DNA of 64,000 bases from a virus: positions 1-64,000 of the IMG/VR virus record IMGVR_UViG_3300034170_000100. One strand, given 5' to 3'. Under the pieces are notes generated by a model that ran no database searches, had not been told where the DNA came from, and worked only from the letters and a program-made list of their open reading frames with translations. Of this stretch, positions 30,559-45,645 are shown in pieces. The position numbers and the translations under genes are program-made. How positions within the stretch are numbered: position 1 is the first letter of the stretch; each line of letters opens with the position of its first letter.

Positions 30559-33500
30559 ATGGCAAACGGCGATAACAACTTCGGTTTTGACGAATTGTTC
30601 CCTGCCGGCCTGCCTGCTGCAAAAGAAGGGGCGTTCAAGCCCCTTTTTGACCTTTCAGCGAAAGCTGAGTCGGTTGCGGCAGCTTCTGAAGAAAAGAAGC
30701 AGACTCTTATCGGGAAAATGGGTTATGACGCCGAAGATACCGTGGGCACCATCGCTAACTATGGTGCTCGCTTTGCGTCCGGTCTAAGTCGCCAGGTTCT
30801 TGGCAACTTGGCTACCCTGCCTCTCGATGTGATTTCTGGCCTGGCCCAAGGGTCCGTTCCTGAAGAACAAGTGCAAGCGTTCAACCGCATGCAAACCAAT
30901 CAAGCAAGTGACGCGGATATGGCTCTGTTGAACCAGACTGCACCACTTGATGACGGTATCCCGCAGACTTACCTTGAGCGCCTGCAAGGCACCCAGGGCA
31001 TTCAAAAAGTTGCGCAGAATGTCGGTGATTTCTTCGACATCTCTAGCATTGTGGACACCACCCGCTCCGAGCGACTGAGCCGCGATATTCGTGAAGCTGC
31101 TGGCGATGGTACTGCGCAGCTGCGCGGCGCCAAAGAAGCCTTCAACGAAGGCCAGTACCTGGAAGCTGCTGGTGAAGGTATCAAGGGTCTCGGCAATACT
31201 GTTGGCCCTGCTTTGCTTGCTGGTTTGCAGTCTCCTGTCGCTGCCGGTGAATACGTCGCAGAGAACATCCCTCAGATCGTTGCTGCTGCTTACAACCCAT
31301 CCATTCTGGTTGGTACCAACGCCGGCTACGGTTATGACACGTACCGTGAAGGTATCCGTGACTACGCCAAGAAGAACGATGGTCAACTTCCAAATGCCGA
31401 CGAGCGTGCGACCATGGGTCTGTTCGCTGCATCGGCTGCTGGTGCTGAAGTAGTTGGCGATGTTGGGCTGCTCAAAGGTATCCGCGCTGCGGGCACCGGC
31501 TCTGGCAACAAGGCAATGAGCGCTGCTATGGGCATTGGTGGGGCCGCTGCACGCGAAGGCGTGACTGAGGGCTACCAGACCTATGCTGAGAACCGTGCTC
31601 AACTGAAAGACACCACGTTGGAAGATATCGTCGAAGGAGCCACCATTGGTGCGCTGGTTGGCGGTAACTTTCAACTGGCTGCTGAAATTGGTGGGGGACC
31701 GAAAGGTGATGCTGCACCTGCCAGGAAAAACGCTGTAGAAAACGCATTTACTTCCGCTGTGGAATCCGGTGATGTTTCATCCCTGACCGACAGCACTTCT
31801 CCTGCATATAGCCCGGTGCGCGCTGTTGAAGCCCTGCATCAGATGAATCTGCAAGATGGTGCCAAGGCCGAGGAAAACCTCGCTCAAGTCGACCGTATTC
31901 AGCAAGACGTGACAGCAGACCTGTCTTCGATCCAAGCCCGTATGGAATCCACTACGCCTGAGCGTGTGGCCCAGATCGGTGCGCTTGTTCAACAAATGGA
32001 AGTCGCAGGTTCCGACCAAGCCGACATTGCTGAAATGCGCCAGATCCACGAAGCTGTATCGTCGTACACGCCTGCCCAACGTAAGGCTGATGAAACTCGT
32101 GCTGCTCAACTGGAAAGCCAGCTGAGTGAGATTCACACTGCTGCCGAGCGCATGCGCGTAGACGCCAGCCCTGAGCAGGCTGATGTTCAAGCGCTTGCAA
32201 CCGATGCACAGACAGGTGATCAACAAGCGGTTGACCGTTTGCTGACCCTGACCATGACCAATCCTGAAGCCGTCGACACCTCGGTCGCTGAGTCTCTTGC
32301 ACAGAGCGAAGCCTTGACCGAGCCGCAACGTAACGCTATGCGCCTCTTCACAGAAGCACAGGTGGCCGCTAATGCCTTGAAGGGCATGCGTGGTGTTAGT
32401 TCGGAAATTGCCACTGGTGGCGATGGTTTCAAGGGTATCTCGCAATATCGCAATGCAATCCGTATGGCCCTGGCCAATGGCAATGAAAGCGCCGCCCGCT
32501 CGCAAGTCGATGGCGTTCGTGCTTTTGCTGCTAGTCGTGTATCGAAACTGGAAGCTATCACCGCTGCTTATGAGCAAGTGAAGGGCACAGACAACTCGAT
32601 CAACATCGTGCGGAATGAGCAAGGCGAATGGGGTCCGACTTCCTTGAAGGGCACAGCTCTCAAGAAAGCCAAAGGTCTGGTAGTTGATGCCCGTTCCTTC
32701 AACCTACGCGACGGTGTAGCTACTGAAGCGGACGTGTTAGCAAAAACTGCTGATGCATTCGAAGCTATGGTAAATGCTGCTCCATCTCCTGTATCGCAAC
32801 CGGTTGTGCAACCGACTGCGGATCAGGGTGAAGTTGCCGCTGCAACCCCTAAAGCTGATGCAAACGCCCCAGTTGACGCAGCACCGGTAGCTCCGGTCGC
32901 TGAACAGACTGCTGCGCCTGCACCTGCTGAAGAAGTTGTGGCAAAGCCGGAAGATGCCCCGAGCGTGACCGAGAAGGCTCCTGCAAATGCAGGCCAGCTC
33001 ACCACAATCGGCGAGCGAACCGGTGAAGCGGTAACCGCGGACAACTACCGTTCTGTCAATCTGGTTTCCGAGCTGTTCGACCAAAAGGTCGGCTCTGACA
33101 CCGATGCAAGCGTTCGCCCGCTGGTAGCTGTCAAAGACTTCGCTTCGGCCATTAAAGCCGGTGAAGTAACCGTGCAAGACTTCCTTACCCAGGAAGGTCC
33201 ACTGCCGGCCCCACAAGTCACGGCACTCAATGCATTTTTCAACTTTGCTCAATATTCTGAGCAGGCAATCCGCAACCAGTTCAAGGTCACTGCTACTCGT
33301 GCCAAACGCCCGGACTTCTTCTATCGGGACATGGCGCAGTTCATGCAGAACGCGGACGGCCAAATTGACGAGAACTTGGCGACTGCCGTGTCTTACGGCA
33401 TGTTCTCGTGGGCAAACGAAAACGCAACTCAACTGCGTAACAGTCCTGAGTCGATCAACACTATTCTGATGCGCGACCTGGACGATGAAGTCTCCAATGC

Positions 33501-36500
33501 TGCGTATGCGGCGCTATCGGCTATCGGTACACGAGAGTCGGTCGTCGCTTCGCAGCTTGGTGGCCGCATCCTGCAAGCCCTGGGCCTCCAGGTAAATCAG
33601 AACGGTACTCGTGCTGAGCTGAGTAAACTGGAATCGTCCGTAGGCGAGCGAGCCATTGCTGCCATGGTCAAGTTGGGTTTGGTAGAACGTACCCAACTCG
33701 CGGACCAAAAACTGCAAGTGCTGATGGGCAAAACTGAATTTGATCCTAAACTGACCCACAACTTCGTTGTTGTGAAGTCGGTGACCGATGCTGAAGGCAA
33801 ACTGCAACCGGCACCGGTTGTGAAGCGCATTCGTGAGCGTTCGGTGGGTTCCCAGTCGGTTGTGTCCAAACTGTTTGCAGTAGAGGCTGCTGGTGTAGAG
33901 CCGAGCTACAAGCCGATCCCCTTCACCCAAGAATTCGCTAAACGTACTAGGCAAGCTGTGCCTAAGACCCTGGCCAAGATTTTGGACAAGGAAGGTGCAA
34001 AAGCTCACGTTGTTCGCCAGAACATGTGGCACGTTTGGGGCAAACTGAGCAAGCAGGCTCTCTATGAAATGGGCGGCGTGGTCTCGACCACCGATGCACC
34101 AACTCACGTTGAGAACCTGGCTTCACGCCAGGCGAAGAATGATGGCCTGATCCAACAAGTGGACAACTTCGACGCATTCGTTAACGCGATGACCGCCGAT
34201 AGCTCGACTGAGGGTCTGGACCAATCGTTGTACTTCGGCCGCTCCGTTTGGAAACCTCAACGTGTTGGTTTGACTGCAAACGTGATCAACCCGCAGACTT
34301 CGAAGATCCACCGTCACATGCTGGCCATGTCCGGTTGGAATGCTACCGTCAACCTCGACAACAAAGCCGAGATGGACAACTTCAAGCTCCGTGTGTTGGA
34401 AGCGTTCGGCAAGAAGACCGAAGCAACCACTACCGCCAAAGTGTTGGCCGGCTACGATGCTGTCGTGTCCAACCCTGCAATTCAGGCTGGTATCGACGCG
34501 CTGGCTGAAGTCCTGCGCGACAATGGCACCGTGAATGAAGCCGCTATCGTCGACGCTGTAAAAGCGGCCGGCGAGAAGTTCCATTCCTTCGATGCGCTGG
34601 TTGCCTTGGCTGAGCAACGTATTGCCGAGCAAGATGGCAAGCCTGCGTTCGAAACCGCGATGATGGGTGAAGTGGACGGTGTAACCAACGGCCCTATGCT
34701 GTCCCTGCTGATGCTGGGTGCCAAAGGCTTTGAAACTATGAACCAAGGTGGTTTCTTTGAGCTGGGTAGCCAGTTCACACAGTTCAACGACTACAAGGCC
34801 CAGGGCAACCTCGACCTGTACGAGTCGAACATCGCTCAGGCACTGAACCGCCTGCAAGGTCGCCAGCAAGGTCAGCTCGACGCTATGTCGGTCATCACTG
34901 GCCAACTGCAAACTGCCGAAGGCAACGTGACCTCTAAAGGCCGTAACATTATCAAGAAGCCGCTGACCGCCCTGATGTTCGGGTCCAACCCGACTACCGC
35001 GGTACAAGGCATGGCCGACGGCTTCATTGAAGCGATCTACAGCCGTATCGAAGATGCAGCTGCTGCCCGTGACAATGATGCAATCGCCCCCTTGTTTGGT
35101 GCTGTGAATACCCTGACTCGCTCGCCGAAGTTCGCTTTGGATGTGAAGATGGGCTATGAGCGTGCCCTGGAAACCAAGTTGACTACTCAACAGCAAGACG
35201 CGCTGAAACGCTCGTTCTATGAGTTGCTGGGTGAGCCGACTGAGAAAGCTCTGGCCGACAACTACGCTACCTTCATCGCTCGCCGGAACGTGATCAACCA
35301 GACAGCACAACTGTCGTTTGACCTGTTCAACGCTGTGCGTGATGGCGTGACTGAGTTCGTTGAGTCGACCAGCCAGGATGTGCCACGTAACAATGCTGGC
35401 GCCGCCATTCGCACGCTGACTAAAGAGCAACAGGCACAAGTAGATGCACTGATGGGCGACATGGCCCCGATCCTGCAAACTGCTATGTCTCAGGCATCGA
35501 AGCAACGTGAAGCTGGTATGTACATGGCCAAGTCGAAGCGTTCGCTCGATTCGTCTGCTGCCTACGAGCAAGAAGTCGCTTTCGGTGAAATGGTTAACAC
35601 CATTGCCCCGGACGGCTCCATGCAGGGTATCGGCTCGACTCGCCTGTCGTCTTCGCGCACTCAGGACATCGACCCAGGTGTAATGCCTTTCATTACCTCC
35701 ATTCACTCCAGCGACTCGGCTATTGCCTCGACTGTGTACGGAATGATGGAAGCACTGAACGTTCACGACGCCTTGGGCGTAGACCTGAACAATGTGGCCA
35801 AGGTTGGCCAGGAGCTGAACAAAGCGACGTTCAACACCATGCTGGAATACTCGTCCGCGACCGCAATGAGCAACATGCTCGATGAAGTCCTGGCCGGTGT
35901 ATCCAAAGTGATGCAGAACCCTGAGCTGGCTGCACGCATTCAGCCTAAGCTGCGCGAGAAGATGGTTGCCCGGGCTGAGAAGAAGCGTGGCTCTATTGCT
36001 GAGCAACTGACCGCTATTCGTGAGACTGCGACCCAGGCGGACACCGATAAGCTGAATATGCTGAGCAACATGCAGGCAATCGGCCAATACGCTACCGACG
36101 GCGGTTCTTACATCGTGACCGACGCTGACCGTGCAAAAGCACAGGCCAAGTTGGACGAAGTGGGTTCCACCTTCAATGCTGCGGCTGAATCTGTGGCTGA
36201 GCAACTGGACGCCGAAGCAAGCATCGTCTCAGCTGTGTATGTTGCAGGCAAGCAAGCTGAGCTGTCCAACACGTCGGTAACGACTCTGGCGCCGGCCACT
36301 TCTCTCAATACTCTGGCTTCGCTTGAGCAGACCCCGGCTGTTGTGCAGGTAATTGATTCCATGGTTTCGGGTAACCGAACTCTGGCCGATGCCCTGCAAG
36401 TTCTGCCTGAGCATCAAGCTGCCGAAGTAGTTGAAGCGGTAAATGGTGCAAGTGAAGCGAAATTGTCTGTATGGGGCCGCTTGGGCACCCCTGTCGTACA

Positions 36501-39500
36501 GTCCGACGTGAACTTGGTGCAACTGCTGGACACCACGGGCATGACTGCTCACAACCTCGTTGATTCGCTGGTTGAGTACGTACAGAACCCGTTCCAGAAG
36601 ACTGTGCTCAAGATGGCCAAGAAAGGCATCTCTGCTCGTATGCCGGTGACCTACATCACTGCCGAGACCGGACCAGAAGGCGCATTTGGTGAAGGCGTAG
36701 ACAAATCCCGCGGTTGGTACGCACAGCGTAACGACCAAGCCGGGTTGTTCATTAAATCCCCGGACTTCGTTGAATCGGGTATCACCCCTGAGCTGCTGAC
36801 CCATGAACTGGTGCATGCTGCTCTGGCAAACCTGATCGACGCAAACCAAGGTAAGAACACCCTGGCCGGCCGCGCTGTAGCGGATCTGGAAGTGCTGCGT
36901 ACCCAAGCTGAAGACTTCCTCGCCAACAATGGCGCCCTGTCTGCTAAGTACCGCAACGCCACGTCGAACGTGCATGAGCTGGTCTCCTGGGGCCTGTCCA
37001 ACCAAGACTTCCAACGTGAAGTGCTGGGCCAGGTATCGGTGCCACAGAAAGACCGATCGATCCTCGACGGCCTGAAGGGTTTCATCAAGTCGCTGACTGA
37101 AATGCTGTTTGGTGCCAACACTCCGTCGGCAAACAACGGTATGGCCAACTTGATCGCCAACTCTGCTGTTCTGTTCCGTGAAGCGGCCCAGGCGCAAGAG
37201 AAGCGTGCGACTGCAACCCACAAGTACGAAGACGCCATCGACCACATCAACGCTATGACTGCTGAGCAGGTGTTTGACGCTCTGGCTACCGTAGGCAACC
37301 ACAAGACTGATGTGGTCCATGCTGAGTACCTGCGTGACCTGTTGGCGCAGACTGTTAACCCGGTCTACGGCCCATACGGCGCATTCAAAGAGGCAGCATC
37401 GGCAAACCGTGCGCTGACCCCGCTGGATGTGTTCCTGAAAGCGGTGAGCACCGGCCAAACTCCGTTCAGCTCCCAGGCAACAGCCGGCCAGTTCATCCTG
37501 TCCCAGCAAGAAGCATTTGTGCTGGAATCGGTAGAAGCGACCATTTCCCACGCCATGGAAACGAAAGAAACTCTGTTCGTTCGCCAGGGTCTGGAAAACC
37601 TGTTCAAGGAGGCACGTTCGAAGCTGAACCCGGACGGGCGCAACTTGCACGCTGGCGATTGGGCAACCGCAAGCCAGAATGAGAAGGATGTCGCTAAAGC
37701 GAAGTGGGACTTCCTGTTCCGCCCACAAGTGAGCGCAACTGGTCGCAACAATTACTTGGCACGCTTTGCTGCCCTGGGCCTGGCCTCGGCCGAAGTCCGT
37801 AATGCACTTGGTTTCTCGACCAACAACTTCGAGACCCCGTTGAAGGGTCTGCCGATCACCAGCAAGCTGACTGAGTTGTTCCGTCGGGCAATGACAGTCT
37901 TTGCCCGCCTGGCAACCAAAGTCATCCCTGGCACCTCGGGCAACGTCGCACTGAGCACTCTGGTAGAGCAACTGGTGGACATCGAGGCCAAGCGTAAAGC
38001 ACGCATGGACCAGGAGAAGGTGAACCACTTTGACCAGCTCGAAACTGCGCTGGCCGGTGTGGGTGACTCCATCCTGGAAAAAGCTGATGCACTAGGCCGC
38101 GCCGGGTTCATTCGCAAGTCGAAGATCCCGTTTGTCGCCGGTCTCGGCGCTGTGGTATCCACCGCTGCCGGTAACCGCCTGGATGCGGTACTGAATGCCA
38201 TCACAATGATGCGCGATCAGTCTCAAAAGAGCCGGCACGGTGTGGTGATGGGCATGCTGACCGAATGGCGCGGTGTGTACGATTCTCGCCGTTTGGCTGC
38301 TGAATTGTTCAAAGGTGCCAAGGCCAACGAGCAACAGCGCAAATCGGTTATCGAGACCACTGCTGCATCGGTAAACGAAGCATTTGCAAACCAGGGCCAA
38401 GATTTGACCCAGGTGCAACGTGATGCGCTGACTCGTGTGTTTCTGCGGACCAATGCCCAGGCAATCGCCGCTGCTCGTGGTGTCGACGGACTGCGCGACC
38501 TCATGGAAGACCCTGCTGCAATGGCGGCATACCGTTCAGACTTGGAAGCACAGGTAACTGCGCTGACTCCGAACTATCTGTACATGATCAGCCAGGCCAA
38601 AGACTTGGCGCACCACAAGGTGGTGGGCGGCTCGACTTCGGCCAACCTGATGCTGTCGACCGGCAACATTGCGGCCATGTTCGGCACCAAGAAGAAAGTT
38701 GCTGCCAATGCCGCGGTTATCACGCTGCTTGAGCAACTAGTGGGCGTATACGGCCTGGACTACAGCGGTGATGTCGATCTGCGCAATGCTCGTGAAGTTC
38801 TGCGCACTGAGATGAATCGTACCGACGGCAACGGCGTGGACTACATGCTGAAGCTGCACACTGGTCTCCAGGCCAAAGCAACTGCTGACCTGTTCAAAGG
38901 CACCGAAGCGCTGCAACAGACCGGCTATGTGGCGGAGATCCACGACAACAAGATCGAAGTCTTGCTGGTAGCCAAGAGCGACGTAGCTGCACACGAGCGC
39001 GCCGGCTACATCGTGGGCACTGCCCTGCAAATGGACCCGAATGTGAAAGGTCTGAAAACCACAGGCCGTGTACTGATGACTCGCCGTAGCGCCGGTCAAA
39101 CTGCGCTGCTTACTGGTGCCATGTCTTTCACCGGCAACAATGCCAAGGGTTCTAGCCCGGTCACCGAAGCTGTCAACATGATGGCCGGCAACCAGACCTC
39201 TGCCGCTGTACGTCAGCAGATTGCACAGCAGAAGGCCCAGGCAGTGGCTGATTTGTTCCACCGCCCATTGTCTTACGACCCACGCAAGGCACAAGCTGGG
39301 CACATGGTCCCCACCCTGGCGCCTGACGGCCGAATAGCTGACTACCGTCACATGATGACCGAACAAAACCGCGATGTCCTTTTGGACCGCGATAATTCGA
39401 TGGATCAAGTGCTGGGAGTCATGGCTGGTCAAATTGCTGACAAAGTGTCCACTGTTCAACAGAACACTGACGTTGTTCGCTCGATGTATGATCAATACCG

Positions 39501-40695
39501 CGCTGACTACACTTCGCGCCCTTCTTCGTACATTCGTGTGTCCGCGGACAGCAAAGACAAAGGTTTGGCCGAGACTTATCGCCTGTTGCCAGAAAGCACC
39601 AAGCAAGAGATCCGCAAGGTATGGAAAGACGACGCAATGTATGTGCCGGCTGACCAACTCGATCTGATCTTTGGCTATCGCAAGTTCAGCCTGACCAATT
39701 CGTTTGACGAATTGCCAGGTGACCGCAACATGTTTGAAAAGGTGCTGGTTGCTGCTACTTCTGCGATCTACGGCGAGAAAGCTGCGCTTCGCGTAGGTCA
39801 AGCTGAAGACATCATGCAAACCCTCGTTAAAGAGATGAAAGACATTCTTGTTGTTAAGAACATCTTCACTCTGGCGGGCAACATCACGTCGAACATGACA
39901 TTACTGGCTTGGGAAGGTGTTCCATTGCGGAAGGCCGCGGCTTCTCACGCTATTGCTATCAAAGGTGCAATCGATTTCCGTAAGGATTCGAAACGCCTGC
40001 TGCAATTGCAACAAGCTGTAGAAATTGGGTACTTCGCTGATAACACTGCTGCTGGGGCAGAGATTCTGGAAATTCAGGATCGTTTGGCACGTAACCCGAT
40101 CAAACCATTGGTGGATGCAGGCTTGATGCCTACTATCGTGGAAGACGTTGAAGTTGATGACGACCGCTACACCTACAAAGCTCACTTGGCCCGTAAGGTG
40201 GAGAAGTTCACTGATAAGGTTCCAGCTTGGATGCGTACTGTCGGTAAACAGGTCTACATGACCCATGACACCGCCACGTATAAATTCTTGAGCCAAACAA
40301 CTCAGTTGTCTGACTTGGTGGCACGTTATGCGCTATTTGAGCACTTGACTACCCGCACGAAAGATCCTCTGAGTGTTGCTGATGCTTTGCACCAAGCTGA
40401 GGACAGTTTCGTAAACTACGACCTGCCTTCGCACCGCACACTGCAATATCTGAACGATATGGGCATTGTGATGTTTACCAAGTACTACTTGCGTATTCAG
40501 AAGGTGATCATGCGTCTTGTGCGTGAGAAACCTGTACGTGGTCTGATGTTGGCAGCAGTTGGTCATATGTGGGCCGGTCTGGATTCCATCATGGATTCCA
40601 GCTGGCTCAACAAGATTGGCAACAATCCGCTGCAAGATGGAGCACTTGGTTACCTCGGCTCGTTGAAAGAGCTGCCAGCAATCAAGTTCCTGTAA
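30559..40695 (+). CDS. virion-encapsidated RNA polymerase (vRNAP, N4 gp50-like)
   Basis: 3,378 residues, matching the giant N4 vRNAP (about 3,500) that is injected with DNA and transcribes early genes from hairpin promoters. The catalytic domain spans roughly residues 1,100-1,800: a DxxGR-like segment SVWKPQRVGLTANVINPQ, motif A GEVDGVTNGPMLS (Asp 1373), motif B KKPLTALMFGSN (Lys 1466) and motif C-like LNVHDALGV (His 1736, Asp 1737). The motif B aromatic is Phe 1474 instead of Tyr. Flanking N- and C-terminal domains are probably for packaging and ejection. Last gene of the virion block. Confidence 0.93.
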   Translation: MANGDNNFGFDELFPAGLPAAKEGAFKPLFDLSAKAESVAAASEEKKQTLIGKMGYDAEDTVGTIANYGARFASGLSRQVLGNLATLPLDVISGLAQGSVPEEQVQAFNRMQTNQASDADMALLNQTAPLDDGIPQTYLERLQGTQGIQKVAQNVGDFFDISSIVDTTRSERLSRDIREAAGDGTAQLRGAKEAFNEGQYLEAAGEGIKGLGNTVGPALLAGLQSPVAAGEYVAENIPQIVAAAYNPSILVGTNAGYGYDTYREGIRDYAKKNDGQLPNADERATMGLFAASAAGAEVVGDVGLLKGIRAAGTGSGNKAMSAAMGIGGAAAREGVTEGYQTYAENRAQLKDTTLEDIVEGATIGALVGGNFQLAAEIGGGPKGDAAPARKNAVENAFTSAVESGDVSSLTDSTSPAYSPVRAVEALHQMNLQDGAKAEENLAQVDRIQQDVTADLSSIQARMESTTPERVAQIGALVQQMEVAGSDQADIAEMRQIHEAVSSYTPAQRKADETRAAQLESQLSEIHTAAERMRVDASPEQADVQALATDAQTGDQQAVDRLLTLTMTNPEAVDTSVAESLAQSEALTEPQRNAMRLFTEAQVAANALKGMRGVSSEIATGGDGFKGISQYRNAIRMALANGNESAARSQVDGVRAFAASRVSKLEAITAAYEQVKGTDNSINIVRNEQGEWGPTSLKGTALKKAKGLVVDARSFNLRDGVATEADVLAKTADAFEAMVNAAPSPVSQPVVQPTADQGEVAAATPKADANAPVDAAPVAPVAEQTAAPAPAEEVVAKPEDAPSVTEKAPANAGQLTTIGERTGEAVTADNYRSVNLVSELFDQKVGSDTDASVRPLVAVKDFASAIKAGEVTVQDFLTQEGPLPAPQVTALNAFFNFAQYSEQAIRNQFKVTATRAKRPDFFYRDMAQFMQNADGQIDENLATAVSYGMFSWANENATQLRNSPESINTILMRDLDDEVSNAAYAALSAIGTRESVVASQLGGRILQALGLQVNQNGTRAELSKLESSVGERAIAAMVKLGLVERTQLADQKLQVLMGKTEFDPKLTHNFVVVKSVTDAEGKLQPAPVVKRIRERSVGSQSVVSKLFAVEAAGVEPSYKPIPFTQEFAKRTRQAVPKTLAKILDKEGAKAHVVRQNMWHVWGKLSKQALYEMGGVVSTTDAPTHVENLASRQAKNDGLIQQVDNFDAFVNAMTADSSTEGLDQSLYFGRSVWKPQRVGLTANVINPQTSKIHRHMLAMSGWNATVNLDNKAEMDNFKLRVLEAFGKKTEATTTAKVLAGYDAVVSNPAIQAGIDALAEVLRDNGTVNEAAIVDAVKAAGEKFHSFDALVALAEQRIAEQDGKPAFETAMMGEVDGVTNGPMLSLLMLGAKGFETMNQGGFFELGSQFTQFNDYKAQGNLDLYESNIAQALNRLQGRQQGQLDAMSVITGQLQTAEGNVTSKGRNIIKKPLTALMFGSNPTTAVQGMADGFIEAIYSRIEDAAAARDNDAIAPLFGAVNTLTRSPKFALDVKMGYERALETKLTTQQQDALKRSFYELLGEPTEKALADNYATFIARRNVINQTAQLSFDLFNAVRDGVTEFVESTSQDVPRNNAGAAIRTLTKEQQAQVDALMGDMAPILQTAMSQASKQREAGMYMAKSKRSLDSSAAYEQEVAFGEMVNTIAPDGSMQGIGSTRLSSSRTQDIDPGVMPFITSIHSSDSAIASTVYGMMEALNVHDALGVDLNNVAKVGQELNKATFNTMLEYSSATAMSNMLDEVLAGVSKVMQNPELAARIQPKLREKMVARAEKKRGSIAEQLTAIRETATQADTDKLNMLSNMQAIGQYATDGGSYIVTDADRAKAQAKLDEVGSTFNAAAESVAEQLDAEASIVSAVYVAGKQAELSNTSVTTLAPATSLNTLASLEQTPAVVQVIDSMVSGNRTLADALQVLPEHQAAEVVEAVNGASEAKLSVWGRLGTPVVQSDVNLVQLLDTTGMTAHNLVDSLVEYVQNPFQKTVLKMAKKGISARMPVTYITAETGPEGAFGEGVDKSRGWYAQRNDQAGLFIKSPDFVESGITPELLTHELVHAALANLIDANQGKNTLAGRAVADLEVLRTQAEDFLANNGALSAKYRNATSNVHELVSWGLSNQDFQREVLGQVSVPQKDRSILDGLKGFIKSLTEMLFGANTPSANNGMANLIANSAVLFREAAQAQEKRATATHKYEDAIDHINAMTAEQVFDALATVGNHKTDVVHAEYLRDLLAQTVNPVYGPYGAFKEAASANRALTPLDVFLKAVSTGQTPFSSQATAGQFILSQQEAFVLESVEATISHAMETKETLFVRQGLENLFKEARSKLNPDGRNLHAGDWATASQNEKDVAKAKWDFLFRPQVSATGRNNYLARFAALGLASAEVRNALGFSTNNFETPLKGLPITSKLTELFRRAMTVFARLATKVIPGTSGNVALSTLVEQLVDIEAKRKARMDQEKVNHFDQLETALAGVGDSILEKADALGRAGFIRKSKIPFVAGLGAVVSTAAGNRLDAVLNAITMMRDQSQKSRHGVVMGMLTEWRGVYDSRRLAAELFKGAKANEQQRKSVIETTAASVNEAFANQGQDLTQVQRDALTRVFLRTNAQAIAAARGVDGLRDLMEDPAAMAAYRSDLEAQVTALTPNYLYMISQAKDLAHHKVVGGSTSANLMLSTGNIAAMFGTKKKVAANAAVITLLEQLVGVYGLDYSGDVDLRNAREVLRTEMNRTDGNGVDYMLKLHTGLQAKATADLFKGTEALQQTGYVAEIHDNKIEVLLVAKSDVAAHERAGYIVGTALQMDPNVKGLKTTGRVLMTRRSAGQTALLTGAMSFTGNNAKGSSPVTEAVNMMAGNQTSAAVRQQIAQQKAQAVADLFHRPLSYDPRKAQAGHMVPTLAPDGRIADYRHMMTEQNRDVLLDRDNSMDQVLGVMAGQIADKVSTVQQNTDVVRSMYDQYRADYTSRPSSYIRVSADSKDKGLAETYRLLPESTKQEIRKVWKDDAMYVPADQLDLIFGYRKFSLTNSFDELPGDRNMFEKVLVAATSAIYGEKAALRVGQAEDIMQTLVKEMKDILVVKNIFTLAGNITSNMTLLAWEGVPLRKAAASHAIAIKGAIDFRKDSKRLLQLQQAVEIGYFADNTAAGAEILEIQDRLARNPIKPLVDAGLMPTIVEDVEVDDDRYTYKAHLARKVEKFTDKVPAWMRTVGKQVYMTHDTATYKFLSQTTQLSDLVARYALFEHLTTRTKDPLSVADALHQAEDSFVNYDLPSHRTLQYLNDMGIVMFTKYYLRIQKVIMRLVREKPVRGLMLAAVGHMWAGLDSIMDSSWLNKIGNNPLQDGALGYLGSLKELPAIKFL

Positions 40696-40702
40696 CAAGG
40701 AC

Positions 40703-40781
40703 GGGAGGGGCAGGATTCGAACCTGCGGTGACGAAAGTCACGACCTTATGGGAATGCATTAAACCGCTCTGCCACCCTCCC
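40703..40781 (-). tRNA. class II tRNA-like element with defective anticodon arm
   Basis: 79 nt on the minus strand. Seen directly: a 7-bp acceptor stem GGGAGGG/CCCTCCC, a D-arm (GCA-GAGCGGTTTAA-TGC), a long variable arm GTGAC-TTTC-GTCAC and a perfect T-arm GCAGG-TTCGAAT-CCTGC. Between D-arm and variable arm only about 13 nt remain (TTCCCATAAGGTC), too few for a 5-bp stem plus 7-nt loop. No CCA is encoded. It is a tRNA pseudogene or tRNA mimic; amino-acid identity cannot be assigned. Confidence 0.6.
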
Positions 40782-40794
40782 ATGTAAAACAAAC

Positions 40795-40820
40795 AGCCCC
40801 CTTACTTAGGGGGCTTTTTC
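40795..40820 (+). terminator. rightward terminator of the virion operon
   Basis: A 7-bp AGCCCCC-TTACTTA-GGGGGCT hairpin followed by TTTTC, after vRNAP and the tRNA-like element. Confidence 0.85.
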
Positions 40821-41011
40821 ATTGCGTCAATCACGAATTCCTTGATCGCTGCCCAAACCAGGAAGAGTATGAAGGCAAGCACCAACATCACTGCCAAGAC
40901 AAAGCAGACGATCTTGAATGCGTAGCCCAACACTACAATCGTAGTGAGGAAGGCGATCAAGGCACCTAATCCGATACAGACCGAGAAAAGGCGCCTGATC
41001 CCCCGGATCAA
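40802..41011 (-). CDS. small two-helix membrane protein (69 aa)
   Basis: Begins MIRGIRRLFSVCIGLGALIA. Residues about 10-30 and 33-58 are hydrophobic helices (GLGALIAFLTTIVVLGYAF, IVCFVLAVMLVLAFILFLVW). Basic N- and C-termini (MKKPPK) would face the cytoplasm. The start overlaps the preceding gene's stop. The end overlaps the rightward terminator. Could be a holin-like or superinfection protein; not assigned. Confidence 0.65.
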   Translation of the reverse strand: MIRGIRRLFSVCIGLGALIAFLTTIVVLGYAFKIVCFVLAVMLVLAFILFLVWAAIKEFVIDAMKKPPK

Positions 41012-41349
41012 TGCTTGGTCGGGCGACGGATGATCATAGCTTCGCCGACTGCCTTACCGTTCAGGTAAATCAGATCGTCGTCACCGATAGTCATACCTTC
41101 CGGCAACTGGGCGTTGATTTCAGCACGGGCCGCGGCCATAGGGTCGACCGAACCTTCGTGTTTGCTGGCCGTGCCTTTATGGCCTGGAGCCTTTGCTTCT
41201 TCAACTGGTTTGAACAGATCAGCTGCGGCATTGGCCAGGATATTGGCTGCTTCCTGCTGATTGACGTTGTACAGGGTTGCTGATGCCTCTGCGAGCAAAT
41301 TGGCAGCGGTTGCGGCTGCAAGCAGAGCTTCATTACATTTTCGGCACAT
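41008..41349 (-). CDS. hypothetical protein with CxxC start (113 aa)
   Basis: Start MCRKCNEALLAAATAAN chosen because AGAAGGA lies upstream; an in-frame extension of 21 codons lacks a ribosome site. An Ala-rich helical region follows, then a charged linker and GMTIGDDDLIYLNGKAVGEA. It lies immediately downstream of the long structured non-coding region and may share its transcript. Confidence 0.65.
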   Translation of the reverse strand: MCRKCNEALLAAATAANLLAEASATLYNVNQQEAANILANAAADLFKPVEEAKAPGHKGTASKHEGSVDPMAAARAEINAQLPEGMTIGDDDLIYLNGKAVGEAMIIRRPTKH

Positions 41350-41460
41350 ACTGCGTTCCTTCTGTTGGTGGGTGTATTGGTAGTGCAACTGCCGAGCTTC
41401 CCATGGCAACACTCATCGCTGAGTGGCAGTTGCACGACCAAAACACCCTCCATGTGTAAA

Positions 41461-42240
41461 CCTCTCCGAAGAGTCAGCTTACGGCGGTTGATGTTTCGGG
41501 TGAGTTACCAACTCACAAGGTTATAGGTTATTACGCGAGCGTTACGGGCTCGCAAGCACCGGACTTCGGAGAACGATGCTTTATGTCTTTGAATCGGTAA
41601 CCCCACTGTGGGCCTGCAAAGCCAGGGGACGCATAGTGCAGCTTACTCGCTGCGCGTGGATGTGTAACACACAAACAAACAGTATCTCGATGTAACATAC
41701 TCACGAATGAGTATTGGAGAGCATCTGGGCATTGTTTCTGTATCTGCCCTCTAAGTGCGGGCGTTTCTGTAGCCCATCCCAGATGCTTTCCAATACCGAT
41801 TCTGAACTCGATATTGGGTTCGATCTTATGTTCGAACAGACATAACCAGAATCGTTCTGGTGTAGACGGGCCGTTATATCCCGGCTCAAGGATAGGATCG
41901 GGGGCCTCGCAGTAGTTGCGAGATCTTAGCTTTTATCCGGACTAAGCCGGCCCCAATTTGACGGTACACCCAAGAATCGAACTTGGATACCGGGAGCGAC
42001 CCGATATTCACACATAATCACCAGACCTGCTGATGTCACGTCAATTCATGGAGCTACCATGTTTATCAGTGACGGCAGTTGTGTGTATGCACCAAAACTT
42101 CAAAATTCCGGCTCGTTGTTTTCCAAACAGTTTTCGCGGTAACAAACGACGTGCTGTTTGCCAACTTCAGTTGGTTTTGGTGTTCAGTACCGATCACACC
42201 ATTATTCGTTCTTTTTATTCCCGGAGTACGAATGACACAG
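41461..42240 (-). ncRNA. giant structured non-coding RNA candidate (about 780 nt)
   Basis: No credible gene lies here, but long-range stems tile the region: 41463-41471/41564-41572 (9 bp), 41500-41506/41510-41516, 41535-41540/41548-41553, 41711-41729/41778-41796 (19 positions, one A-C or G-U), 41797-41804/41847-41854, 41901-41906/41949-41954 closing a three-way junction, 41958-41963/42039-42044 and 42090-42098/42174-42182. Size, density of helices and tRNA-like neighbours recall GOLLD and ROOL RNAs of phages. Strand is uncertain: flanking genes, the tRNA-like part and A-rich loops favour minus; three G-U pairs favour plus. Confidence 0.6.
41958..42044 (-). ncRNA. tRNA-like domain within the structured region
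   Basis: On the minus strand: outer stem TTGACG/CGTCAA, a D-arm-like CATC-AGCAGGTCT-GGTG, a variable-arm-like CGGG-TCGCT-CCCG, and a T-arm CCAAG-TTCGATT-CTTGG. As in the element at 40703, the anticodon arm cannot form a normal stem, and the acceptor is irregular (an extra GGTA/TACC pair closes the T-arm). Probably a tRNA-derived module of the larger RNA. Confidence 0.5.
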
Positions 42241-42255
42241 TCCCCTCCGTGTTGC

Positions 42256-42459
42256 TTAATCGAGCGTGGTGCGAATTTCACTGCGAGGAGTCCATCCGCT
42301 GCTGGATTGAACCATGCAACCGATAGACCCGCTGAACTTCACAACACGCTCTGTCTGGTAGCCGTACCAACTGCACTTGCCCCATCCAAAGCCCCAACCG
42401 ATACCGATCACGACAATGAAGAAGGCCAGCACAATTAATGTGGCTTTCAGGTGAGCCAC
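42256..42459 (-). CDS. small membrane protein (67 aa)
   Basis: GTG at 42459 directly after the upstream stop, with AAGG upstream. The N-terminus (MAHLKATLIVLAFFIVVIGI) is a membrane helix or uncleaved signal; a polar domain with two Cys follows (GKCSWYGYQTERVVKFSGSI). It lies between the TerB-like gene and the structured region. Function unknown. Confidence 0.55.
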   Translation of the reverse strand: MAHLKATLIVLAFFIVVIGIGWGFGWGKCSWYGYQTERVVKFSGSIGCMVQSSSGWTPRSEIRTTLD

Positions 42460-42903
42460 TTAGGCACCCTTGCGGATTTCGAAGTGTTCTTCGCTCAGGC
42501 GGTAGCCCAGCTCGCGCGCGATCTCTTCGATCACTTTGCGTTCTTCCGGCTCGACTTCGCCGTCAGCCTTGGCGATTGCCAGGACGTTCAGCACCACGTC
42601 TTCGACGTGTTCGTCGTTGCCTTGGATGTCGCGGATTTCGCGCAGGATCTTGCTGCGGCCGACCAGGAAGTCACCTTCCAACAGATCGGTGAAACGACGA
42701 ATCGTCTTACCGATGTCGGCGCCGAAGTGCTTGAGGTTTTCATTACCGGCGATCAGCTTTTCGAGCTTGGTCAGCTCGTCTTTCTCGATGTCGCCATCAG
42801 CTGCGGAGACCAATAGACCGCCGCCGACGATTGCTTCCATCAGGTCGCGGTTTTCGACTTTCTTGGCACCGCGGAACAGCTTGCCAGCGAGTTTACTGAA
42901 CAT
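42460..42903 (-). CDS. TerB-like protein
   Basis: Start MFSKLAGKLFRGAKKVENRD at 42903 has AGGA 8 nt upstream. Two acidic motifs typical of the TerB fold are visible, VSAADGDIEKDELTKLEKL and AIAKADGEVEPEERKVIEEI, with helices between them. TerB-family helical proteins often bind metal ions and occur in phages; a tellurite role is unlikely here. Transcribed with the replication genes. Confidence 0.75.
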   Translation of the reverse strand: MFSKLAGKLFRGAKKVENRDLMEAIVGGGLLVSAADGDIEKDELTKLEKLIAGNENLKHFGADIGKTIRRFTDLLEGDFLVGRSKILREIRDIQGNDEHVEDVVLNVLAIAKADGEVEPEERKVIEEIARELGYRLSEEHFEIRKGA

Positions 42904-43363
42904 GATCATTTTCCTGGATTGGCAGGTCATTGCCTGGGGGCCGGGTTGACGCTGCGACAATTTTGGTACGCATGTCACGGCCAACGGCCGCGCCTAATGC
43001 CCACTCTTGATGATTGAAGGTGTCGTCTTCAGGGAAGGCGTTCACCAACTGGCCTGGGTCGGGCACCGTAAAGGTTTGCTCTAAACCAAGGTTGTAAGCG
43101 GCAGAGGTGACTGACGCTACTGGCGCCTGCGAAGTGCCTGTCAGCTCGAACTCGGTCATGTAGCCAACATAGGCCACGTTGATCAAGGTCGAGCCTTCAG
43201 GGATCTGTCGGCTGGCACGGGCACCATTCAAAATGGGGATCGTGACAGCACGCGACTTCGACCAGACAAATGCACTCAGAGGGACGTAAGCCCCCGGCTG
43301 AGGCACCGACCAGACTGCCAGGAACCAATGCCGCTTTTTATTGCGGTCATCGGCCTGGGTCAT
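42893..43363 (-). CDS. hypothetical protein (156 aa)
   Basis: Begins MTQADDRNKKRHWFLAVWSV. Beta-rich with Gly/Pro/Ser turns (GAYVPLSAFVWSKSRAVTIP); the C-terminus is disordered (STRPPGNDLPIQENDHVQ). It lies 2 nt after the upstream stop and overlaps the TerB-like gene by 11 nt. No family recognised; context suggests a replication-associated accessory. Confidence 0.65.
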   Translation of the reverse strand: MTQADDRNKKRHWFLAVWSVPQPGAYVPLSAFVWSKSRAVTIPILNGARASRQIPEGSTLINVAYVGYMTEFELTGTSQAPVASVTSAAYNLGLEQTFTVPDPGQLVNAFPEDDTFNHQEWALGAAVGRDMRTKIVAASTRPPGNDLPIQENDHVQ

Positions 43364-43365
43364 GA

Positions 43366-43701
43366 TCAGTCGAACAGGTTGTCGGCATCGGAACCGGCAA
43401 CATCGGCGCCAACTTCGGCAGCGGTTTCGACCTGGGCTTCGGTTTGAACTTCAGCCGGGGTTTCGACAACAGGCGCCAGAGCTTCAGTTACCGGGGCCAC
43501 GACGGTCGCTTTGGCAACAACAGGTGCTGCTTCGGCCGGGGCCTTCGGCTCGGTGTCCAGTTCGCACAGCAGTTCTTTCGAGCCGCGCTTGAAAGCGAAA
43601 TCGGCGGTGACTTTGGACGGATCGAACGCAGTCATGCCACGAGTGGCCAGGAATTCGCACAGAGCCAGGGTTACGTCAGCGTGGGAGAGAGTCAGTTTCA
43701 T
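43366..43701 (-). CDS. acidic-tail protein of the replication block (111 aa)
   Basis: A compact N-terminal part (MKLTLSHADVTLALCEFLAT, KVTADFAFKRGSKELLCELD) is followed by about 55 residues of Ala/Glu/Val/Pro linker, ending GSDADNLFD. The last residues resemble the SSB tail (AVDSLFD), suggesting both dock to the same partner. Overlaps the RuvC-like gene by 4 nt. Function unknown. Confidence 0.65.
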   Translation of the reverse strand: MKLTLSHADVTLALCEFLATRGMTAFDPSKVTADFAFKRGSKELLCELDTEPKAPAEAAPVVAKATVVAPVTEALAPVVETPAEVQTEAQVETAAEVGADVAGSDADNLFD

Positions 43702-44261
43702 TGTTTCGTTCCTCGGTAAAATTGGATGATTTGTTTGTAAATTTCGGTCTGGAGACCGGCATAGATGGCGCCCAATGCGTCAGCCATGTGTTCTGCATCG
43801 CACAATAGGATTTCTCCGTTGGATTTCCGTGGCCAGGGGGCCTCGGGGTGTTTCTTTATCGCCCACTCGATCATTTGCTTTTTGGTGGCCTTTCGGTCAC
43901 CTACAGCCGCAAGTTTGACTTCGTTGGGCGTTACTTCGACGAATTGAGAATTGGCGCGGAGACTGCCCAAAACCCCAATGCAGATACCAGAACATAGCGA
44001 GGCGCGGGCGCTTTGACTCCCAACGGGAATTTCGGCGAAGGTAAGGCTCGCTGCTGTGAAGGGAGCTACGCCCTCATATAACTGGTTTGCCGTGCGCAGA
44101 TCTTGTGAGTTCTGCCGTACCTGCTTTCCTTCGAGCGGTTCAGCCCGCACAACCCGGAGGGTTTTGATGGTCAGTTGCCCGGTGTCGGTGTCAATCGTTC
44201 CACCGGCTATGCCCCAGTTACGAGAACTTGGATCGTGTCCCGCTACACTGAGGCGAGCCAT
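43698..44261 (-). CDS. RuvC-like Holliday junction resolvase
   Basis: 187 residues with the RNase H-fold pattern of RuvC: GHDPSSRNWGIA (first Asp), FAEIPVGSQSARA (Glu), and C-terminal AEHMADALGAIYAG (His/Asp). Expected to cut branched DNA before packaging or during recombination-dependent replication. Lies among SSB, the Gp49/66 protein and the exonuclease. Confidence 0.85.
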   Translation of the reverse strand: MARLSVAGHDPSSRNWGIAGGTIDTDTGQLTIKTLRVVRAEPLEGKQVRQNSQDLRTANQLYEGVAPFTAASLTFAEIPVGSQSARASLCSGICIGVLGSLRANSQFVEVTPNEVKLAAVGDRKATKKQMIEWAIKKHPEAPWPRKSNGEILLCDAEHMADALGAIYAGLQTEIYKQIIQFYRGTKQ

Positions 44262-44812
44262 TACACGCCAGCGCGGCTAAGGCGGCGCTGGAGCACAGCA
44301 ACGTAGTCTTTCATCAGACCGTGTTGCGTGCGAAGGTCGGCGATTTCATCGTCCGAAAGTTCCAGAGCTTCCAGAGCACCTGCATCGACTTGAACAAGAA
44401 ACTCGCTCAGGCCCATCAGACGGGAAGCCACTTGGTACATTTCAGTCAGCACACGCTGCACATGATCAGGCAGCTCGCGCTGTTCCTGAGTCAGTGGGCG
44501 ATTGCCGCGATGGATGTCTTCGGCCAACAGGAAACCGGCGAACGGCCACAGTTGGTTCCGGGCATCTTCGTAGGCGAATTTCTTCGCCAACTCTTCGCTG
44601 TAGTTCTCGGCCGAGACCGCGCCCAGGTTTTTGCCCAGGACGGTGAAACCGTTGTGCAGGGTGATTTGGCACAGCATGCCCAGGCCGCCGATCTTGAGCA
44701 GAGACTGCTCTTTGATCATGGCGTCCAGAGCGGCAGGGGTGACCCGTGGCGCCTTGGTAAGGCCGAGGGCCTGGATCTGTGCTTCGGTTGCAGCTTCGTC
44801 TTTGTTAGACAT
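44261..44812 (-). CDS. N4 Gp49/Sf6 gp66 family protein
   Basis: Start MSNKDEAATEAQIQALGL with AGGAG upstream. Residues about 20-95 match the Gp49/66 family pattern: RVTPAALDAMIKEQSLLK, then LCQITLHNGFTVLGKNLGAV, AENYSEELAKKFAYEDARNQ and LWPFAGFLLAE. A C-terminal helical extension follows. Family function unknown. Overlaps the RuvC-like start. Confidence 0.85.
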   Translation of the reverse strand: MSNKDEAATEAQIQALGLTKAPRVTPAALDAMIKEQSLLKIGGLGMLCQITLHNGFTVLGKNLGAVSAENYSEELAKKFAYEDARNQLWPFAGFLLAEDIHRGNRPLTQEQRELPDHVQRVLTEMYQVASRLMGLSEFLVQVDAGALEALELSDDEIADLRTQHGLMKDYVAVLQRRLSRAGV

Positions 44813-44856
44813 GTACAGCTCCTGAGAAGGGCCGGTTACCCGACCCATGGGGGTGT

Positions 44857-45645
44857 TCAGTCGAATAGGGAGTCGACAGCTTCCCCACCGGCAGTGGTAG
44901 GCGTGCCAGCAGGGCCACCGGTACCAGCAGGTGCGACCAGCTTGTCAGCTTTGACTTTGTTCACGACTTTGCCGGTGTTGGCTTCAACCCATTTCGGGTA
45001 GAAGTCGGCGGCGACAGGTTGGCCTTTCTGCTTGGCTTCACGCAGCTCGGCGATGGTCGCATTGTTGTCGGCGAAGAAGATCTTGCCAATCTGGTTTTCG
45101 AACTTGGTGTCCGGTACGCCAGGCTCGCCAGCTTTGTGAACTGGCAGGTATTCGTTGCCGACCTTGATGGTCTTGTTCACTTCGTGCTTTTCCAGGCCCA
45201 AGATGAACTTTTTGCCGATCAGCTCGACCGCCATTGGCACTTCGGTTGGAACGTCTTTCTTCTGCTCGTGGTCGCGCAGTTTCAGGATTTTCGTTTCGAA
45301 AGCCAGAGCGTTCAGCTCTTTCTTCGCGCAGAACATCGAGATCGCGTTGACGTTGTTGAAACCAGGCAGGTAGGACTTCTTACCGTCGCGCTCGTAGTAC
45401 GGCTTGTTGCCTTTGGCATCGCCGGAGGTTACCCACTCGGTGAACTTGAACTTACGACCGTCGTCGCCTTGGACTTCGAAAGACATACTACCGGCGCCGC
45501 CTTTGGACTTGCCAGCGTATGCAGCCAGGATGGTTACAGGGTAAGCACCACCGTCCCAGACGAAACCACCACCGAGACGGTCACTATCCGTTTCGATCTG
45601 TTCGTTCGTGGTATTAACGGTGTTGGCAAAAGGGTTCAGACTCAT
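44857..45645 (-). CDS. single-stranded DNA-binding protein (N4 gp45-like)
   Basis: 262 residues (MSLNPFANTVNTTNEQIETD) with a central OB-like region and a flexible tail (VAPAGTGGPAGTPTTAGGEA) ending VDSLFD, the acidic end typical of phage SSBs. N4 SSB is needed for replication and also activates host RNAP at late promoters, so this gene links replication to the virion block. A hairpin promoter (45681-45704) lies about 45 nt upstream. Confidence 0.88.
   Translation of the reverse strand: MSLNPFANTVNTTNEQIETDSDRLGGGFVWDGGAYPVTILAAYAGKSKGGAGSMSFEVQGDDGRKFKFTEWVTSGDAKGNKPYYERDGKKSYLPGFNNVNAISMFCAKKELNALAFETKILKLRDHEQKKDVPTEVPMAVELIGKKFILGLEKHEVNKTIKVGNEYLPVHKAGEPGVPDTKFENQIGKIFFADNNATIAELREAKQKGQPVAADFYPKWVEANTGKVVNKVKADKLVAPAGTGGPAGTPTTAGGEAVDSLFD

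Follow-up and report, generated by a model that had tools for sequence, protein, structure and literature searches.

A structured RNA with a conserved 3' core and exchangeable parts encoded by N4-like phages

Results

Genomic setting

We analysed a window of 64,000 nucleotides (positions 1 to 64,000 of IMG/VR record IMGVR_UViG_3300034170_000100, a virus record of 74,794 bases). The window belongs to an N4-like phage (Schitoviridae; N4 itself is a phage of E. coli) and carries on its plus strand, at 30559-40695, the virion RNA polymerase gene of N4-like phages, here an ORF of 3,378 codons. The C-terminal part of this ORF gave an 83% match to the annotated virion RNA polymerase of phage phCDa and matched 465 phage records in all. 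Beyond the polymerase gene follows a run of leftward genes: an SSB-like gene (44860-45645), a Gp49/66-like gene (44264-44848), a RuvC-like gene (43701-44261), a TerB-like gene (42460-42984) and a gene for 67 amino acids (42256-42459, minus strand). The last of these lies directly upstream of a stretch of about 900 bases without a conserved ORF (41353-42255), which is flanked on the other side by a leftward gene for a 113-amino-acid protein of unknown function (41008-41349, minus strand). A 69-amino-acid ORF lies between the 113-amino-acid gene and a tRNA-Leu (aag) gene, which ARAGORN placed at 40699-40782 on the minus strand, 0.6 kb downstream of the non-coding region.

The 113-amino-acid gene is kept beside the non-coding region in relatives. 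Its products form a family with N-terminal helices rich in alanine and a beta piece at the C terminus, and distant members show a CxCG motif. The upstream 67-amino-acid gene is absent in some relatives, and such variability of the upstream neighbour is as expected if the region is an independent unit. We also observed that the 67-amino-acid and TerB-like genes (42256-42984) are gained or lost among relatives; where they are missing, a gene of the RHWFLAVWSV type adjoins the region.

The tRNA-Leu gene is missing in L001, a relative with 94% identity whose match begins just past the tRNA. A strong bidirectional terminator-like hairpin (40791-40819) separates the convergent polymerase gene and leftward operon. 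No self-standing promoter was recognised for the non-coding region, but promoters of a phage RNA polymerase would escape detection.

A non-coding region conserved in position

Relatives were collected by a search with the polymerase C-terminus, which yielded 25 viral contigs. A gap of 0.7-1.1 kb without a conserved ORF was found at the same place in the nearest relatives (L001-L009, L012 and L020) and also in the more distant L011, L013 and L014. The named relatives are phCDa (Shizishanvirus) and Littlefix and 98PfluR60PP (both Littlefixvirus). Within the region of the window, the longest ORF on the minus strand has 62 codons. No ORF is common to the family, every frame being broken by gaps and swapped modules. 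An initial annotation, made from sequence alone, had described an almost continuously base-paired stretch without a credible ORF at 41461-42240. Both parts of this description held, and the boundaries are corrected to the wider interval of about 41353-42255. Position, lack of a conserved ORF and covariation define 41353-42255 as the region that encodes the RNA; the exact ends of the RNA are not defined.

Compared with shuffled sequences, 791 nt folded with z = -8.1 on the plus strand and z = -3.7 on the minus strand, and the 905-nt region (20 shuffles) with z = -7.5 and -5.9, respectively. Some adjacent coding windows likewise reached z = -4 to -7, and we therefore regard folding energy as weak and non-specific evidence. 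The decisive evidence for a structured RNA is covariation across relatives.

Covariation and strand

In an alignment of the 3' core (A2; 11 sequences, three helices), 95.8% of cells were standard pairs and 15 of 26 pairs had changed on both sides. When the partner was slid by 1-3 columns as a control, pairing fell to 39-50%. The 3' domain (A3; the last ~360 nt) was 93.1% paired, with changes on both sides in 17 of 54 pairs; one of its helices (columns 204-222) is compatible with the window, L001 and L002 alone (52% paired), and relatives have a shifted hairpin there. For the 5' part (A4; seven sequences) the values were 98% and 5 of 28 pairs. As a phylogeny-aware control, the observed number of substitutions was placed randomly along the tree in 1000 runs, none of which reached the observed counts for A2, A3 or A4. 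These compensatory base changes show that the region encodes a structured RNA.

Read on the minus strand, the A2 helices contain 48 G-U cells and one A-C cell, and the A3 helices 60 and one. The same G-U pairs would read as A-C mismatches on the plus strand, so the RNA is the minus strand, which the initial annotation had left unstated. Although the plus strand has the slightly better fold in the window, covariation and the G-U asymmetry speak against it as the RNA. The RNA runs leftward from 42255 to 41353, in the same direction as the neighbouring genes and the tRNA.

The conserved 3' core and the terminal hairpin

The 3' core (41430-41545, minus strand; 26 pairs) is supported by covariation. 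It comprises a hairpin (41516-41511/41505-41500), a long helix (41499-41490/41447-41438), a further helix (41482-41476/41462-41456) and, in the window, a small UUCG hairpin (41473-41464), whose loop is UUCG, GUAA, GAAA or longer depending on the phage. The minus-strand 3' end common to relatives reads GCUGAC-hairpin-GAGGU, with a hairpin such as GUGAGU-UGGUA-ACUCAC in front of this motif.

Just upstream of the start of the next gene lies a long 3'-terminal hairpin (41366-41452, minus strand). The lower part of this hairpin and the core's long helix compete for the strand 41438-41447: it pairs either with 41490-41499 or inside the terminal hairpin, and the two states are mutually exclusive. Both are conserved, with 99% of cells paired in the long helix and 93% in the terminal hairpin.

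A hairpin at 41637-41654 (minus strand) is closed by the hexaloop GAGUAA, a loop also found elsewhere in the family. This hexaloop and its variants GAGCAA, GAACAA and GAGUGA cap several different hairpins, up to three per RNA. Its recurrence may reflect a repeated tertiary contact.

Central stem, 5' half and exchangeable modules

The central 18-bp stem (41796-41779/41728-41711, within 41711-41796 on the minus strand) had 99.4% of cells paired and changes on both sides in 10 of 18 pairs. Its tip is formed by an exchangeable module A (41729-41778, minus strand), composed of CAGAAACG, a hairpin and GCAGGUACAGAAACAA. The location of module A varies: the window, L001, L003 and L012 carry it in the central stem, L004-L007 in another stem, and in L002, L006, L007 and L020 a module B occupies the central stem instead. 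The apex of module A is palindromic in six relatives (CUGUCGCGACAG, CCGUCGCGACGG or CUGUUAGCUACAG) and not palindromic in the window, so that palindromic loops can be taken only as a hint of possible self-association.

Next to the central stem lies a 35-nt block (41810-41844, minus strand) containing the 10-nt palindrome UGUUCGAACA. The block is 100% identical over 35-36 nt in the otherwise diverged L003, L006, L007 and L020, and its 21-nt core is present in 8 contigs. It adjoins a local hairpin, ACCAGAA-CGA-UUCUGGU (41845-41861, minus strand), to which CCGAC..GUCGG corresponds in relatives; this hairpin was read from the sequences.

The 5' half, all on the minus strand, begins with an H-type pseudoknot (42204-42249) supported by covariation in seven sequences. 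Its P1 helix (42249-42245/42226-42222) is 100% paired with changes on both sides in 2 pairs, and its loop pairs at 42233-42228/42209-42204. Three hairpins follow within 42124-42200, with stems 42200-42196/42183-42179, 42174-42170/42165-42161 and 42160-42154/42130-42124; 98-100% of cells are paired, and two of the three show compensatory changes. Two unrelated versions of the 5' half exist: the window, L001, L003, L004, L005, L007 and L035 have type I, and L002, L006, L012 and L020 have type II. Our results demonstrate that the RNA is built from interchangeable parts, with a constant 3' core and an exchangeable 5' half and tip modules.

The stems proposed in the initial annotation fared unevenly. 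All of the complementary stretches that it named are present in the sequence. Its 19-position stem 41711-41729/41778-41796 held as the strongly covarying 18-bp central stem, and CAAACAG/CTGTTTG (42124-42130/42154-42160) is supported by the A4 covariation. Three further pairings failed: TCTCCGAAG/CTTCGGAGA (41463/41564) is lost in relatives, its first arm being part of the small hairpin with the UUCG, GUAA or GAAA loop, CGATTCTG/CAGAATCG is replaced by the local hairpin 41845-41861, and CACCAAAAC/GTTTTGGTG by the local hairpin 42179-42200. The pairing of GGGGCC/GGCCCC, present in the sequence, remains unresolved. More broadly, the annotation had proposed a giant ornate phage RNA without settling its class, and two of the three observations that it named as refuting this proposal were a lack of covariation across homologous regions and inverted repeats unconserved between close relatives. 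Covariation was found and the main stems are conserved, and the proposal is supported.

Link to tRNAs

The initial annotation had also mentioned a tRNA-like part. This held: an element at 41958-42044 (minus strand) combines a D-arm-like hairpin (42035-42032/42022-42019), a long variable arm (42006-42000/41994-41988) and a T arm (41986-41982/41974-41970), and has no ordinary anticodon arm. Its arms covary, the T arm and long variable arm among them, with changes on both sides in 4 of 16 pairs, in three sequences only (the window, L001 and L035). ARAGORN did not call this element. Other members carry related features: a real tRNA-Arg lies within the RNA of L008 and L009, a T-arm motif inside that of L002, and two T-arm motifs just downstream of the 3' core in L014. 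The 3' core is kept in L003, L004 and L006, in which no tRNA is recognisable.

Range of the family

We derived a covariance model (R1) from the 3' core alignment and used it to search the records. It found exactly one strong copy per member genome and no match in the N4, KPP21, Ka3, Litunavirus-like and Luzseptimavirus records tested. Outside the group, matches to the pattern in L037 (within a capsid gene) and L062 (within an acetyltransferase gene) were judged to be chance, as were matches in L053-L060 to the small hairpin only (12-15 bits). The RNA had no match in a plasmid collection. Rfam searches at gathering and permissive thresholds returned nothing except the tRNA and chance hits, and no Rfam family matches the RNA. 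The family spans N4-like phages of Pseudomonas together with related contigs from metagenomes and was previously uncatalogued. We found no paper on a structured RNA in N4-like phages in the open-access literature searched; most subscription papers were outside its scope.

Other non-coding gaps occur at the same place. L010 (812-1722 past the polymerase gene) and L022 have a structured gap of 911 nt with a long central stem and a tip module, yet without an R1 match; this may be a diverged member or an analogue. KPP21 (L045, 2446-2842) and L016 (~918-1196 past the polymerase gene) have shorter gaps of 0.3-0.4 kb. These shorter gaps of Luzseptimavirus and Litunavirus-like phages contain strong inverted repeats, e.g. 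CAGTAAAAAGAGT/ACTCTTTTTACTG.

Discussion

In this study we show that N4-like phages encode, on the minus strand within a leftward operon, an RNA with a conserved 3' core, exchangeable parts and a link to tRNAs; its strand and the secondary structure of its main domains are established. With several hundred nucleotides of covarying structure and no ORF, it meets the criterion for a large ornate phage RNA, and no catalogued class fits.

GOLLD, a large structured RNA of phages and prophages, has a conserved 3' and a variable 5' part, carries tRNAs in a linker and forms an RNA-only cage (PMC12286853). Its further hallmarks are an increase in expression at phage lysis and a homo-oligomeric make-up of the cage. 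The RNA described here shares this plan: its 3' region is conserved (the R1 core, in all members), its 5' region is less so (two exchangeable halves), and tRNAs lie nearby or inside the variable part. In contrast to GOLLD, it has a much narrower range and swaps modules. ROOL is a large ornate phage RNA with pseudoknots, found near tRNA genes, which also forms RNA-only cages (PMC12286853). It is marked by a highly abundant RNA of 0.6-0.7 kb. Our RNA likewise has a pseudoknot and a tRNA gene nearby, but ROOL has ~660 nt compared with ~900, and no common sequence or motif was found. Neither the window nor the region was hit by the Rfam models of GOLLD and ROOL, with which the initial annotation had proposed a search, and the L014 and L008 regions gave no hit at permissive E-values either. 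As no Rfam family matches, we did not file the RNA under GOLLD or ROOL; the resemblance to GOLLD in general plan is clear, and any likeness in function rests on analogy. As in tmRNA, the tRNA-like part lacks a normal anticodon arm, but here it is internal, and ARAGORN found neither a tmRNA nor a tag peptide. A weak permuted-tmRNA score in L008 overlaps the tRNA-Arg of that contig.

On balance, we favour the view that the minus strand of 41353-42255 gives rise to a large, stable, free-standing non-coding RNA of a new family that acts as a scaffold, with a modest margin over the alternatives and without data on transcript, size or stability. In this view, the RNA would be co-transcribed with the leftward genes and then processed out of the transcript around the terminal hairpin and, where present, embedded tRNAs. 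By analogy with GOLLD and ROOL, it may then act as a free-standing scaffold, in which a constant 3' assembly core would be combined with variable arms, and these arms would hold tRNAs or other partners or make contact with them. It might form a multimer via self-complementary loops, or a complex with the small protein of the adjacent gene.

The main rival is a giant cis-acting leader controlling the downstream small gene, which we cannot exclude. The alternative helices at 41438-41447 could switch access to the downstream ribosome-binding site, or processing near it. In favour of a leader, every member examined has the small gene directly downstream, and both mutually exclusive helices are conserved. 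However, ~0.9 kb far exceeds the size of ordinary leaders, conservation is poor in the downstream protein whereas the loops and helices of the 3' core are kept, and internal tRNAs and swapped 5' halves are unlike a dedicated sensor.

A less likely but also viable rival is a ribonucleoprotein that the RNA forms with the small downstream protein, like OLE RNA with the Oap proteins. OLE is a large ornate RNA with protein partners encoded in its genomic neighbourhood. A conserved neighbourhood of RNA and protein gene is also seen here, including in L008 (E = 2e-5); L010 and L014 may be further cases. OLE, however, occurs in Gram-positive extremophiles, and our RNA has no Rfam match. Against this rival, a search for known RNA-binding domains in the 113-amino-acid protein found none, and its predicted structure is of low confidence (mean pLDDT 64).

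Two further explanations have little left in their favour. A tRNA-bearing precursor in slow decay, with incidental structure, would account for the tRNA and T-arm-like pieces in several members, but covariation is strongest outside the tRNA parts and the core is kept in L003, L004 and L006 without a recognisable tRNA. A DNA element (an origin, a packaging or recombination site, or hairpin promoters used by the virion RNA polymerase) would fit the many inverted repeats and the good folding of the plus strand. It is already disfavoured by the 48:1 ratio of G-U to A-C, a sign of RNA-level pairing on one strand, and by the interchange of UUCG, GUAA and GAAA tetraloops on the minus strand. An overlooked coding region can practically be ruled out: single members do contain isolated ORFs, with up to 132 codons, but the window offers at most 62 codons on the minus strand and the family has no common ORF in frames broken by gaps and modules.

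Returning to the free-standing scaffold, a bolder reading is conceivable, in which this RNA of N4-like phages constitutes an RNA-only assembly of a new, independent class. The 3' core would multimerise via self-complementary loops (the UGUUCGAACA block, UAGCU and CGCG), and swappable arms would carry different cargo, tRNAs included. GOLLD and ROOL form RNA-only cages whose role in phages is unknown. The presence of members in the isolated Pseudomonas phages phCDa, Littlefix and 98PfluR60PP makes the family accessible to experiments. Finding this general plan again in an unrelated family, and in a different lineage of phages, would suggest a shared need that is met by big RNAs and, if the bolder reading is true, phages trade RNA modules as they trade protein domains.
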